Assembly (NCBI GenBank): GCA_029261355.1
Contig: JAJDBM010000036.1
Location: 62,001-126,000 of the forward strand
DNA: 64,000 nt
From: Nitrospirales bacterium
GTDB taxonomy: Bacteria; Nitrospirota; Nitrospiria; Nitrospirales; UBA8639
Direction of reading: 5' to 3'
The position numbers were made by a program, and so were the translations under genes. The notes below the pieces were generated by a model. It worked only from the letters and a program-made list of their open reading frames with translations. It was not told the DNA's origin and did no database searches. Below, piece after piece: positions 57,888 to 64,000 of the stretch. Each line of letters opens with the position of its first letter. Position 1 is the first letter of the stretch.

Positions 57888-58322
57888 ATGTCTGAATCTA
57901 ACTCAGCGGGTATGTTCAGTGGTCGAAAGTCAGAAGGTCTCGTGCTTGTTGTCGATGACGAACCTGATGTCAGAAAAGTCGTACGTATGACCTTAGAAAA
58001 ATCCGGGTATACCGTACTCGAAGCAGAAGATGGAGAAAAAGCCATTGCCGAGATGAAAAAAGATGAAAACTCGCTCCTATTGAGTCTCATTATCACAGAC
58101 ATTCGCATGCCAAATATGAATGGCATTGACGTGATTAATTATTACAGAAAAGAATGGCCTAGCGTCCCGCTCATTGTCCTCACCGGCTTTCCAGATATGG
58201 ATATGGCGACATCCATGTTACAGCACGGCATTGCCGATTATCTTGTCAAACCTGTGGAAGCAGAGAAGTTACGATCCTCCGTATCCAAGACCTTGGAAAA
58301 ACGTGAAGTCCATGGGTTTTAA
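57888..58322 (+). CDS. Single-domain response regulator
   Basis: A 144-residue CheY-like protein: LVLVVDDEPDVRKVVRMTLE (acidic pocket), LSLIITDIRMPNMNGIDVIN (phospho-acceptor Asp) and DYLVKPVEAEKLRSSV (Lys). No output domain. It likely receives phosphate from the kinases encoded downstream, the first 259 bases away. GAGGAGGG lies before the ATG. Confidence 0.93.
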   Translation: MSESNSAGMFSGRKSEGLVLVVDDEPDVRKVVRMTLEKSGYTVLEAEDGEKAIAEMKKDENSLLLSLIITDIRMPNMNGIDVINYYRKEWPSVPLIVLTGFPDMDMATSMLQHGIADYLVKPVEAEKLRSSVSKTLEKREVHGF

Positions 58323-58581: not shown

Positions 58582-59613
58582 ATGAACAACACAGATCAAA
58601 CGAATATTGTCATATTGGGTGCCGGTAAAGGCGGAACTGCTCTCCTTGATCTATTCACTCGTCTTCCTGGAGTGACGGTTGTTGGGATTTCAGACCAGAA
58701 CCCTGCAGCGCCTGCACTTGAGTATGCAAAGCGATTGAATATCCCCATTACTCAGGACCCAGTCCAACTCATCCGTCATCCCGGCACTCATCTCATTGTG
58801 AATGTGACAGGAGACCCCGACATAAATGAGCAGGTCAATACACACAAACATCCAGAAACAGAGATGCTAGGTGGAGCGGCATCTAAAGTCCTCTGGGATC
58901 TGGTCCAAGATGAATCTCAGATGCAAGCTCAATTATTTCAAGCTGAAAAGCTTGCGGGGATGGGGACATTCGCCTCTGGCATTGCACATGATATCAATAA
59001 CCCCCTCTACATTTTGTTGGCATTTTCAGAAAATATTTTAGAAGAGACAGATCTTCCCACTATCCATAAACAAGCCAGAAGCATTATTGCCGCCGGCAAA
59101 CGGATCCAAAGTATTAGTCAAAAAATCACGCAATATACACGGGCGGCCAAAGTACAAGATGCCGTTTCTATCAACGTCAATTCCACACTCGATGAGGCAT
59201 TGAACATTGCTCAATTTGCTACCATGCTTCAAGATATTTCCATTATCAGAAATTATGAAGACAACCTTGAGGTGCTCGCCAACTCCGAAGAGCTGTTTCA
59301 GGTCTTTGTCAATCTCATGACAAATGCCATTCATGCTATGGAAGGCAAAGGTACTCTGACAGTCACATCTTACCATGAAGACAGTTTCGGGAAAATTTCC
59401 ATTGCCGACACGGGTAGTGGAATACCAGATGAAAATCTCTCAAAAATATTTGAGCCATTCTTTACAACCAAACCAAAAGGTGAAGGCACTGGATTGGGCT
59501 TACATAACGCAAGGGCCATTATAAAAAAATATCGAGGCGACCTCTCGGTAGAAAGTACAATTCGACAAGGCACCACATTTGTGATTGAACTCCCGTACGC
59601 AACCAGCAAATAA
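58582..59613 (+). CDS. Histidine kinase with N-terminal NAD-binding Rossmann domain
   Basis: A 343-residue cytoplasmic protein. Residues 1-105 form a Rossmann-like domain: TNIVILGAGKGGTALLDLFT (GxGxxG), VVGISDQNPAAPALEYAK, LIRHPGTHLIVNVTGDP. This resembles the nucleotide half of GFO/IDH-type or aspartate-dehydrogenase-like proteins. Residues 120-340 are a NtrB-type kinase: GMGTFASGIAHDINNPLYIL (phospho-His136), LMTNAIHAM, FEPFFTTKPKGEGTGLGLHN. No membrane helix. NAD(H), or a similar nucleotide, is therefore a likely signal, but that is inferred. It follows the single-domain regulator, its probable target, and precedes a second kinase. Confidence 0.88.
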   Translation: MNNTDQTNIVILGAGKGGTALLDLFTRLPGVTVVGISDQNPAAPALEYAKRLNIPITQDPVQLIRHPGTHLIVNVTGDPDINEQVNTHKHPETEMLGGAASKVLWDLVQDESQMQAQLFQAEKLAGMGTFASGIAHDINNPLYILLAFSENILEETDLPTIHKQARSIIAAGKRIQSISQKITQYTRAAKVQDAVSINVNSTLDEALNIAQFATMLQDISIIRNYEDNLEVLANSEELFQVFVNLMTNAIHAMEGKGTLTVTSYHEDSFGKISIADTGSGIPDENLSKIFEPFFTTKPKGEGTGLGLHNARAIIKKYRGDLSVESTIRQGTTFVIELPYATSK

Positions 59614-59632
59614 GAAGCCCCCATTCACATTC

Positions 59633-62098
59633 ATGAATACAACTCATCATCAAAAGTCTACCCCTCAAGTCAAACGAGGACTCAAACGTAAACTGATTGT
59701 CTCCATGATCCTTGTTGGATCCCTCCCTCTGATCATTGGGTTGGTAATGGCATTTTTGCAAGGCACCAAAGAAATTCGAGAGGTCAGCGGTACGAGCTTT
59801 AAAGCCTTGGCTTCAGAAACTGCAAGCAAAATTGACCTGATTCTGAGTGAAGAACTAGCCTACACATCTCAAATTACCACAGACGTGGCTATCATCAGGG
59901 CCTTAAAGACTCACCGTGATCAGCTTTTGGATTATCGCGATGATGCACTTGAAGTACTGACAACTCGAGAAGAAAAGTCCTGGACTGATCACGATCCAGA
60001 TTTCATCAAACAACTCACCAAAAACACCCTAGCCCTCCTCCTCCAACAATACTCGGACGGATCATACGTTGACCCTAGGCACCCCATTCCTATCGTCACT
60101 CGTTCAGCCACACGAGGACTCTTTATTACTGACATTGCAGGACGCATTATCGCGACTATTAACACCAATGTCTCATATACCCATGCCCAGGAATTATGGT
60201 GGAAAGGGGCATTTAAGAATGGAGTCGGCCAACCGTATATTGAAAACGTCAAATTTAATGAGAAAATTGAAGCCTATACCTTTACCCTCTCCCTCCCAAT
60301 CATGGATAGCATTCGCGATCAGGTGGTTGGGGTACTCCATCGTATCTACGATGCAAAAGAGTTTTTCGCCCCCTCCATTGAAAGCATTCGATTTGGCACA
60401 ACTGGGCATGTCATGCTGATCGATGGGTCAGGGAAAGTCCTCAGTTGCCCAGTACTTCCCACAGGCACGAGCCTCAGTGACCCAAATCTCATTCCCTTAG
60501 TTACCCCCCTGCATAAGGGCTGGACAGCGGCTCCTAGTGACGGCCATGGCGGATTGGACTCTTCAATTATAGGGTTTGCCCCTCTTCCCACGATAAGCCG
60601 GATAACGCAATCCTCAACCGGCATGGGTTGGCACATGTTCGTCTGGCAATCCTCTGAAGAGCTCTTTGCTCCGATCGAACATCTCTTTACATGGATTTCC
60701 GTCTTCGGTCTGCTATCGGTTGCCTTACTTGCCACACTAGGAGCCATTGCCGCGGGAAGAATTGTCACCCCCGTTCGTCAACTTCAAGAAGCCGCAAAAC
60801 TTATTGGACGTGGACAATGGCAAGAACCAATCAACATTCAAACACATGACGAACTTGAAGAATTGGCTGACGAAATGAATCGGATGAATCAGCAATTAGC
60901 TTCAACCTTTGCAGGACTGGAAAGCGAAGTAGAGCAAAAAGCGCAGGAAGTCCAATATCTTCAGGAGTCAACCTCGCAGATTCTTGATAGTATCCCAGAT
61001 CCTGTGATTATGTTAAATCACAATCAAGAAATTCGGTACATGAATCGGGCCTCGAAAGACGCACTACTCCTGAAGACCAACGGGCATATTGAAGGAACGT
61101 CACTGTTTCATGTCCTTAAAACTGATCCCTCGACAACCAAACGACTTACTGAAGAATTTCAATTGATTGGGGGAGACTTTGGCAAGAATGAAACATCAAA
61201 TTCTGCATCACACACGACATCACCCCAACAATTTAAAGACCCCCTCGAACAACAATCTGATTGGAGCACGGGTTCCGATGGTCAAGAGTTTCACCTCAAC
61301 AATCAAACTTTCCGCTACGAATGGTTTACCGTCAAAGCTCGACCTGGACATGACACAGGAATTGGATTGGTGTTTAGAGATATGACTAAAGAAAGTCGCT
61401 TACAGGATCGCCTCATTAAAGAAGAAAAGCTGGCAAGCTTGGGCGTGCTGAGTGCAGGAATTGGCCATGAACTGAATAACCCTCTCGTCGGCGTCATTGG
61501 TCTTGGGGAAGCCATTCAACAAGAAGACAATCCAAGTCAGATGAAAGAATATGCCGGTAATATCGTTCAGCATGGACGCCGTATGGCATCCATCATTAAA
61601 GACTTCAGCGGTTTGGCCGCGTCACAATGGAATGACCAATTGACGCAAGTGAATATACAGGAACAATTGGACTATGTCCTTCAGGCTATCCAACAGACTC
61701 ATGACACCTCCTCCTTGAACATCATCACTCACTATGATTTCCCCTCAAGTCTCCACGTCAACCCACAAGAACTCAATCAAGCGTTCACCCATGTGGTAAC
61801 CAATGCAGTTCAGGCCATGGACGAAAATGGCACGCTTACTCTCAACACTACACTCACAAATGATGGCATACACATTACCATCAGCGATACAGGACCCGGC
61901 ATTCCTCGAACACAATTATCTAAAATTTTTGATCCATTTTTTACGACCAAACAACAGGGCATCGGTGCAGGTCTTGGACTAACGATTGCACGACGCATTA
62001 TCCAAAAGTATGGGGGACGAATCCAGATTCTTAGCCATGAGCATGAGGGCACGACCTGTCAGATCACATTCCCCTGCAATGAAACCGACTCGTCTTAG
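59633..62098 (+). CDS. Cache-HAMP-PAS sensor histidine kinase
   Basis: An 821-residue membrane kinase; the ATG at 59633 is preferred to a TTG at 59585. One helix (LIVSMILVGSLPLIIGLVMA), a periplasmic dCache-type domain (about 55-345, with LFITDIAGRIIATINTNVSY and FGTTGHVMLIDGSGKVLSCP), and a second helix (LFTWISVFGLLSVALLATLG). Then HAMP (AAKLIGRGQWQEPINIQTHD), PAS (ILDSIPDPVIMLNHNQEIRY) and a NtrB-like kinase (GVLSAGIGHELNNPLVGVIG; FDPFFTTKQQGIGAGLGLTI). Cache domains bind small metabolites. It lies 20 bases after the Rossmann-kinase gene. Confidence 0.93.
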   Translation: MNTTHHQKSTPQVKRGLKRKLIVSMILVGSLPLIIGLVMAFLQGTKEIREVSGTSFKALASETASKIDLILSEELAYTSQITTDVAIIRALKTHRDQLLDYRDDALEVLTTREEKSWTDHDPDFIKQLTKNTLALLLQQYSDGSYVDPRHPIPIVTRSATRGLFITDIAGRIIATINTNVSYTHAQELWWKGAFKNGVGQPYIENVKFNEKIEAYTFTLSLPIMDSIRDQVVGVLHRIYDAKEFFAPSIESIRFGTTGHVMLIDGSGKVLSCPVLPTGTSLSDPNLIPLVTPLHKGWTAAPSDGHGGLDSSIIGFAPLPTISRITQSSTGMGWHMFVWQSSEELFAPIEHLFTWISVFGLLSVALLATLGAIAAGRIVTPVRQLQEAAKLIGRGQWQEPINIQTHDELEELADEMNRMNQQLASTFAGLESEVEQKAQEVQYLQESTSQILDSIPDPVIMLNHNQEIRYMNRASKDALLLKTNGHIEGTSLFHVLKTDPSTTKRLTEEFQLIGGDFGKNETSNSASHTTSPQQFKDPLEQQSDWSTGSDGQEFHLNNQTFRYEWFTVKARPGHDTGIGLVFRDMTKESRLQDRLIKEEKLASLGVLSAGIGHELNNPLVGVIGLGEAIQQEDNPSQMKEYAGNIVQHGRRMASIIKDFSGLAASQWNDQLTQVNIQEQLDYVLQAIQQTHDTSSLNIITHYDFPSSLHVNPQELNQAFTHVVTNAVQAMDENGTLTLNTTLTNDGIHITISDTGPGIPRTQLSKIFDPFFTTKQQGIGAGLGLTIARRIIQKYGGRIQILSHEHEGTTCQITFPCNETDSS

Positions 62099-62454: not shown

Positions 62455-64000
62455 ATGAAGTATAAGGACTGTCTTCCCCTCTTGGAATCTACAAGCCTGC
62501 GATCATTACCTCAATACTTCCGGACCGTGAACCCCACAACCCTCGAACGACAAAGAATGCGAAAAACCTCGCCAGAAGACAATGGCCCATATTCTAATTA
62601 CCGTATGGCTGTGAGGCTGGAACTCACTCAACGCCCTGGAGTCTTTGCTCAACTAGTCACAGCACTAGCCGACGAAGGCGCCAACGTGGGAGCCGTCGAT
62701 CTCATTTCTGCAACGAAAAAAACTGTCGTTCGCGATGTCACCTTTGATGCTCTTAGTGAAGAACATGGAGAACAAATTCTTGACCGATTAAGCAAGCTGC
62801 CAGATGTCCATATCGTCGCCGCGTCTGACAATATCTTTATGATGCATCTGGGTGGAAAAATCCACGTTGAGAGTAAATTTCCCATCAAAACTCGCAATAC
62901 ACTCTCAATGGTCTATACGCCTGGAGTCGGCCGGGTGGTCAAAGCCATTGCCGAGGACCACGAGAAAGCCTATACCTTCACCAGTAAACACAATAGTATT
63001 GCCGTTGTCACCGATGGCTCAGCTATTCTTGGATTAGGCAATCTCGGACCTGAAGCAGCCCTTCCAGTCATGGAAGGCAAAGTCATGCTCTTCCAACAAT
63101 TTGCCAACATTGATGCATGGCCTATTTGTTTGAATACTCAGGACCCTGATGAAATTATCCGAACTGTCGCAGCAATTGCCCCTGGATTCGGCGGGATTAA
63201 TCTCGAGGATATTAGCGCACCTCGATGCTTTCATATTGAAGCGAGTCTTCGTGAACAACTAGACATCCCAGTTATGCACGACGATCAACATGGAACCGCC
63301 GTTGTCGTGCTTGCCGCCTTATACAATGCCTTAAAGTTGACCAAAAGAAGGATTGCTGATGTTCGAATCGTCGTCGTCGGTCTCGGCGCAGCAGGCACAG
63401 CCTGTTGCAATCTCCTCATTCAAGCCGGGGCAACACATATTAAAGGCTGCGATAAAAATGGACTCGTACTCAATGCACCAATCAATAAGCTTCGAAACCA
63501 TGATCAGCATATCCAGTCATTGATTGACTACAACAATCCTGTAGGAACCCTCCAAGATGCGATGAACGATGCCCATGTGGTCATTGGTCTTTCAAGGAAA
63601 AACGTGCTAAAAGCACACGATTTATCACTCATGGCTAAAGATTCCATCGTCTTCTCACTGGCGAATCCTGACCCAGAAATTTCTCCACAGGATGCGGTCT
63701 CCCATTGTCGAATCTATGCAAGTGGCCGCTCCGATTATCCAAACCAATGTAATAATCTACTCGCATTCCCTGGAATTTTTCGAGGTGCCCTTGACGTTCA
63801 AGCCAAGAAAATTACAGAACCAATGTTACTGGCCGCAGCTCAAGCATTGGCAGGCCTCGTACCGCCCTCAGCCTTGAACGAAGAATATATCATCCCGAGC
63901 GTCTTTGATAAGAAGGTGGTATCCCACATTGCAAAGGCTGTGGCCAAAGTTGCGGTCCAGACCGGAGTAGCACGCCGTCAAATCAAAAGCATAAAAGGCT
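62455..64000 (+). CDS. NAD-type malic enzyme with ACT domain (3' truncated)
   Basis: The frame is open from the ATG at 62455 to the window end (515 codons). A second possible start is at 62557. Residues about 50-120 form an ACT regulatory domain (LELTQRPGVFAQLVTALADE, then GAVDLISATKKTV). The malic enzyme domain follows: VYTPGVGRVVKAIAEDHEKA, VTDGSAILGLGNLGPEAALP, LEDISAPRCFHIEASL, DIPVMHDDQHGTAVVVLAAL and the NAD-binding VRIVVVGLGAAGTACCNLLI. It oxidatively decarboxylates malate to pyruvate. The N-terminal ACT form is common in bacteria and implies control by an amino acid or similar ligand. Confidence 0.92.
   Translation, partial: MKYKDCLPLLESTSLRSLPQYFRTVNPTTLERQRMRKTSPEDNGPYSNYRMAVRLELTQRPGVFAQLVTALADEGANVGAVDLISATKKTVVRDVTFDALSEEHGEQILDRLSKLPDVHIVAASDNIFMMHLGGKIHVESKFPIKTRNTLSMVYTPGVGRVVKAIAEDHEKAYTFTSKHNSIAVVTDGSAILGLGNLGPEAALPVMEGKVMLFQQFANIDAWPICLNTQDPDEIIRTVAAIAPGFGGINLEDISAPRCFHIEASLREQLDIPVMHDDQHGTAVVVLAALYNALKLTKRRIADVRIVVVGLGAAGTACCNLLIQAGATHIKGCDKNGLVLNAPINKLRNHDQHIQSLIDYNNPVGTLQDAMNDAHVVIGLSRKNVLKAHDLSLMAKDSIVFSLANPDPEISPQDAVSHCRIYASGRSDYPNQCNNLLAFPGIFRGALDVQAKKITEPMLLAAAQALAGLVPPSALNEEYIIPSVFDKKVVSHIAKAVAKVAVQTGVARRQIKSIKG

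Follow-up and report, generated by a model that had tools for sequence, protein, structure and literature searches.

A candidate NAD(H)-sensing Rossmann domain at the input of a Nitrospirales histidine kinase and of other signalling proteins

Can a dinucleotide-binding domain, detached from any enzyme, serve as the sensory input of a histidine kinase? The question is raised by the open reading frame at 58582–59613 of the window (the whole 64,000-nucleotide stretch of DNA analysed), the product of which is a soluble protein consisting of a Rossmann domain, one helix and then a HisKA/HATPase_c kinase. Little is known of how bacteria link two-component signalling to their NAD(H) pool. Our main reading, to which we assign a probability of roughly 0.7, is that the first 112 residues would form a stand-alone, non-catalytic Rossmann domain of NAD(H) type, used as a cytosolic sensory input in the manner of PAS and GAF domains.

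The kinase and the fold of its N-terminal domain

The kinase gene and its parts, all on the + strand of the window, are as follows.

58582..59613, +, Rossmann-HisKA-HATPase histidine kinase (type A), 343 aa, start ATG 58582
58597..58917, +, Rossmann input domain, residues 6–112; the nearest PDB folds are NAD(P)-binding domains
58618..58635, +, dinucleotide-type loop GAGKGG, residues 13–18, kept across seven architectures
58693..58695, +, acidic residue D38 at the end of strand 2, where NAD-specific folds hold the adenosine ribose; all distinct domains that align at this site have D or E
58894..58986, +, helical linker of fixed length (31 residues) from W105 to the phospho-acceptor H136
58987..58989, +, phospho-acceptor H136 in the H-box HDINNPL; H-box present in 49/50 type-A homologues
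59284..59601, +, HATPase_c catalytic domain (Pfam), residues 235–340

Pfam located HisKA at residues 128–188 (E 1.7e-8) and HATPase_c at residues 235–340 (E 2.5e-26). Together with the H-box histidine, the N-box (N244), the G1 box (at 276) and the G2 box (at 300) were all present, as in an ordinary HisKA histidine kinase. The sequence-only reading had described a nucleotide-binding domain with an intact GAGKGG loop followed by a kinase, and both parts were borne out by Pfam, by the loop residues and by the structure prediction; the domain, then put at about 105 residues, was found to end near residue 112, with its last helix running on toward the kinase. Absence of PAS and GAF domains also held, as Pfam detected no PAS, GAF, HAMP, Cache or other input domain in the kinase.

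Structure prediction, proposed earlier as a check, gave a confidently predicted Rossmann fold for residues 1–123 (AlphaFold monomer model, mean pLDDT 87), with strands at 7–12, 31–37, 71–74 and 94–97 and a last helix (99–122) that points on to the kinase. In a full-length model of a HisKA_3-linked (type-B) relative from Nitrospira moscoviensis, the corresponding helix extends from residue 132 to 208, in a model of pLDDT 75 and pTM 0.40 that makes domain placement weak. By Foldseek and VIA-align, the nearest structures were the NAD(P) domains of acetaldehyde dehydrogenase, of GenD2/KanD2 with NAD, and of inositol dehydrogenases (Z 10–12.7); the fold libraries were read for nearest folds only, and families missing from the VIA-align list may still match. 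When the domain profile was compared with PDB sequences, acetaldehyde dehydrogenase ranked first (E 5.5e-6) and the repressor Rex sixth (E 2.6e-4).

The domain has no Pfam model of its own. Among 35 members, 31 matched GFO_IDH_MocA and 23 matched DapB_N (E <= 0.01). The match of window residues 8–88 to GFO_IDH_MocA (PF01408) was weak (E 0.0018; 19.4 bits, under the gathering cut-off of 24 bits), and some relatives pass this threshold narrowly. The C-terminal substrate-binding domain of Gfo/Idh/MocA enzymes is absent from the window protein, in which the kinase starts at residue 128. As judged by the NCBIfam equivalog cut-off and Pfam, the protein does not belong to the acylating acetaldehyde dehydrogenases, of which the NAD-domain part was matched weakly and a second domain not at all, nor is it a Rex repressor, from which it differs in domain order and output.

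Distribution and outputs of the domain

A search for further proteins of the same architecture had been suggested from the sequence, and many were found. The 113-residue domain alone was detected in 60/60 genomes drawn from the genus, family and order of the window organism, far beyond chance, and a chance resemblance to the Rossmann fold was rejected; a frame or assembly artefact was likewise rejected, given the order-wide conservation. For the phylum sample, the domain was detected in 97/198 genomes with a single-sequence query and in 253/396 Nitrospirota genomes with a 35-row profile at E <= 1e-6. Across 84,980 species genomes, 380 stretches were confirmed. Nearly all of the best 80 carry Nitrospirota names, among them Nitrospira moscoviensis NSP M-1 and Ca. 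Manganitrophus. Exceptions within the best 80 were one 'bacterium', one Nitrosospira and a few MAGs named Deltaproteobacteria bacterium (L109, L117, L124, L143 and L172), a label that does not imply placement outside Nitrospirota. No relatives were found in viral contigs or phages.

Grouped by output, with classes verified by Pfam on examples, 173 distinct domains comprised 83 HisKA_3 kinases (type B), 50 HisKA kinases (type A), 15 sigma-54 AAA+/Fis activators (type D), 12 domains inside receivers (type C), ten large hybrids of GAF-(PAS)-kinase-receiver-GGDEF architecture, two GAF-GGDEF proteins and one GGDEF-EAL protein. These represent seven architectures within Nitrospirota; an eighth was detected in a clostridium.

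L230 5998-6780, soluble Rossmann-MCPsignal protein of Acetoanaerobium noterae (Bacillota), 260 aa; domain at 32% identity, E 1e-10

The 2.63-Mb A. noterae record, filed as plasmid pTPELB2, looks chromosomal. With at least eight kinds of output, the Rossmann domain is a promiscuous input domain: the single instance noted at first stands as a Rossmann input, and its singularity does not. Two forms, type A and the NarX-like type B, are usual per genome, as in the genome of the window.

G000:C7:72149-72457 (L041 5412-6539), minus, type-B paralogue in the window genome: Rossmann-HisKA_3 gene preceded by glyA-nrdR and followed by a NarL-type regulator

In a tree of 80 domains, built from 108 columns only and with many forks unresolved, types B, D, G and E formed one group each and type C lay among type A. 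The output label changed 8 times on this tree, compared with about 42 times for shuffled labels; each output is nearly its own clade. Identity between architectures falls to about 30%.

The distance from the domain to its output was constant. Spacing between W105 and the phospho-acceptor histidine was exactly 31 residues in 48/48 type-A proteins measured, the corresponding spacing in type B was 47 (74 proteins) or 48 (8 proteins), and that from the tryptophan to Walker A in type D was exactly 53 in 15/15. A rigid signalling helix would require such a non-drifting linker, and common descent also contributes to it.

Neighbouring genes

The genes next to the window kinase, and one that occurs at related loci, are the following.

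57888..58322, +, single-domain receiver, probable partner of the kinase (D71, T99 and K121; Pfam and motifs)
59633..62098, +, second histidine kinase, dCache-HAMP-PAS-HisKA-HATPase, membrane-type (Pfam); likely start ATG 59633
62455..63999, +, ACT-domain malic enzyme of the NAD(P)-dependent family; found at five loci, and a neighbour only in the clade of the window
L205 2620-3216, L207 9357-9968, L210 2152-2742 and others, Tll0287-like c-haem protein (PF11845) after the dCache kinase in relatives

For the second kinase, the first-listed TTG start (window 59585–62098) would overlap the end of the Rossmann kinase, and ATG 59633 is likelier. Among 15 type-A loci, the dCache kinase lay directly downstream in 15/15 and the receiver directly upstream in 11/15. 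At nine type-A loci, the dCache kinase was followed by a secreted Tll0287-like c-haem protein (for example at L207: PF11845, E 2e-16). This protein is absent at the window locus, and nine PF11845 matches occur elsewhere in the window genome. Close to the genes of the window, the search for sigma-54 promoters found none.

The regulator upstream of the kinase had been read as lacking an output domain, and Pfam agreed: the product of 57888–58322 is a bare receiver with the acidic pair, the phospho-Asp, the Thr and the Lys, which fits a receiver acting on something elsewhere. Involvement of this receiver as the likely kinase partner is suggested by type C, because there the Rossmann domain is fused to the same receiver. 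In twelve relatives the domain is spliced inside the neighbouring receiver domain and the kinase core is gone.

L022, L027, L028, L030-L032, L034-L036, L038, L039, L219, type-C proteins (Rossmann domain inside receiver)

These proteins (264–290 aa) align with the window receiver in two pieces, about 1–109 and 105/110–142. The insert, which interrupts the receiver between its residues 105 and 110 or so, corresponds to window kinase residues 1–127 at about 44–52% identity. As judged from the flanking receiver motifs LTG and YLVKP, the insertion would lie between receiver strands 4 and 5. Nearly all type-C proteins keep the phospho-Asp, Thr and Lys of the receiver, and every one of them has both the Rossmann loop and the acidic residue. 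A dCache kinase was absent from the type-C loci examined. An N-terminal membrane helix is seemingly also present in the type-C proteins of L022 and L219. The type-C gene fusion is the best evidence that Rossmann domain and receiver may work together.

Type-B genes usually follow nrdR in a block rplI-glyA-nrdR (gene names from sequence, not profile), and a NarL/LuxR-type regulator, checked by Pfam, was observed in the immediate neighbourhood at 17 loci. For type D, a malate dehydrogenase gene lies directly upstream and a nuoF-like gene downstream at ten or so loci. In the downstream gap, ahead of the nuoF unit, a sigma-54 -24/-12 match (TGGCAY-N-TTGC[AT]) was found at 12/13 loci, and it is usually the sole such match in 8–14 kb.

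L084, L094-L099, L102, L103, L105, L106, L108, predicted -24/-12 promoters downstream of the type-D gene

Background of this match was about 1% in Markov controls and 22/2698 in windows elsewhere in the same loci. About 45–50 nt past the match are a ribosome site and a small CPRC-containing, zinc-ribbon-like ORF, followed by nuoF. The rarity of the match and its presence at 12/13 loci suggest that the type-D activator most likely switches on the adjacent gene for an NADH-oxidising flavoprotein, as an NAD(H) sensor might. The pairing of mdh with nuoF is not by itself due to the regulator, because the window genome has this pair too, but no type-D gene beside it: malate dehydrogenase, an orphan nuoF and a [2Fe-2S] ferredoxin gene lie together there (L232; G000:C24, about 9–13 kb). 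No good sigma-54 site was found at this window-genome pair. Among the complex I genes of N. moscoviensis, transcription is highest for a single orphan nuoF (PMC6606698), which shows that this class of gene matters.

Ligand, mode of action and related systems

Conserved over all architectures are the loop glycines, D/E at position 38, T/S at 76, G98 and W105. Conservation of the loop in homologues had been named beforehand as a check, and the glycines were kept in almost all of the 173 distinct domains, while every domain that aligns at the acidic position has an acidic residue, many of these domains being related and the counts therefore not independent. Both GxGxxG and the acidic residue are retained in types A–G, the latter as E instead of D in 47/83 type-B domains.

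In the classical NAD-binding fold, the adenosine ribose is contacted by an acidic residue at the end of strand 2, which normally favours NAD over NADP; because such a residue ends strand 2 here, NAD(H) would be preferred over NADP(H). Context also points to NAD(H), with malate dehydrogenase and NuoF around type D and malic enzyme beside the window version, the last being found beside type A only in one clade. A less likely alternative is that the fold holds another ligand, such as NADP(H), CoA or acyl-CoA, or a small aldehyde- or malate-like metabolite, and reports this instead of the NAD+/NADH state. In sequence, the domain is closest to CoA-acylating acetaldehyde dehydrogenases, for which CoA binding in the same fold is possible, and seven of 35 members gave weak scores with Pfam CoA_binding; against this, the acidic residue is kept throughout and the type-D neighbours make and oxidise NADH. 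We consider it improbable that the domain is an enzyme relic without ligand, serving only dimerisation or as a protein docking surface. The catalytic half of the related dehydrogenases is indeed missing, and the glycine loop is degenerate in a few large hybrids, but a bare scaffold would not require the retention of loop glycines, acidic residue, DVTG motif and Trp at about 30% identity. A bifunctional dehydrogenase-kinase, as the fold common to NAD(P)-dependent dehydrogenases might suggest, was rejected, since the Rossmann core leads straight to the kinase and no catalytic or substrate-binding domain was present in any architecture examined.

For a non-catalytic NAD(H) sensor we propose the following mode of action. 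Most likely NAD+ or NADH would sit with the GxGxxG loop on one side and the acidic residue of strand 2 on the other, and the bound state would shift the last helix and, through the helical linker of fixed length, the dimerisation helix of the kinase. This movement would set autophosphorylation of H136, from which phosphate may pass to the adjacent single-domain receiver. The receiver probably also hears the adjoining membrane-bound dCache kinase, and could thus combine the internal redox state with an external signal. Ligand, sign of the response, phosphotransfer partner and final target are all inferred here, and the activating redox form is not predictable from sequence. For the domain family as a whole, we lean slightly toward a widely shuffled, previously undescribed NAD(H)-sensing module that would feed redox state into two kinase classes, sigma-54 activators, c-di-GMP enzymes and a chemotaxis-type domain; its splicing into a receiver in one lineage may let the ligand act there without a kinase.

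Rex is the standard direct NAD(H) sensor. It is the nearest functional model for the Rossmann input domain: in Rex (5zz5, 7wb3; S. aureus Rex, PMC2883068) a non-catalytic Rossmann domain signals the NADH/NAD+ state to an output, as the domain here would. Rex, however, is a DNA-binding repressor with an N-terminal winged helix and a C-terminal Rossmann domain, whereas the domain described here stands at the N-terminus, with kinases, AAA+ activators, cyclases or a receiver as its outputs. The NAD domain of acylating acetaldehyde dehydrogenase (1nvm, 7z3s) and the Gfo/Idh/MocA enzymes are closest in fold and sequence, sharing GxGxxG and the alternating beta-alpha core, but possess a second, catalytic domain of their own that is missing in the window kinase. 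Types A and B have ordinary kinase cores, of AtoS/ZraS-type HisKA and NarX/NreB-type HisKA_3, respectively. Known members of these groups receive their inputs through Cache, HAMP, PAS, Fe-S or other domains; none of the Cache, HAMP, PAS and Fe-S inputs is found in the window kinase. KidO of Caulobacter is the nearest case of an NADH-binding protein, there an oxidoreductase homologue, feeding a phosphorelay (PMC7083601, citing Radhakrishnan 2010); KidO is a separate protein, whereas the Rossmann domain here is built into the signalling protein.

In the literature on Rossmann or NAD inputs of histidine kinases, activators and chemoreceptors, with subscription papers mostly outside the coverage, a description of the domain was not found. 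Within this coverage, the kinase itself is of a known kind, whereas no precedent was met for the input domain, for the variety of outputs it serves or for its placement inside a receiver. The domain, for which there is no dedicated Pfam family, occurs in nearly every Nitrospirales genome searched. Direct reading of NAD(H) by a kinase would be physiologically sensible in nitrite oxidisers such as Nitrospira, because these must make NADH via reverse electron flow (PMC6606698). For the window genome, the alpha subunit of the type-II DMSO-reductase family (TIGR03479) gave no match over the cut-off, and nitrite oxidation by this host is not implied. The receiver-embedded version would be an unusual way of controlling a receiver, and type D, with its predicted target promoter adjoining it before nuoF, offers a clean test system. 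The window genome, of 4.6 Mb, is rich in signalling genes: HATPase_c was matched 84 times and sigma-54 activators 29 times.
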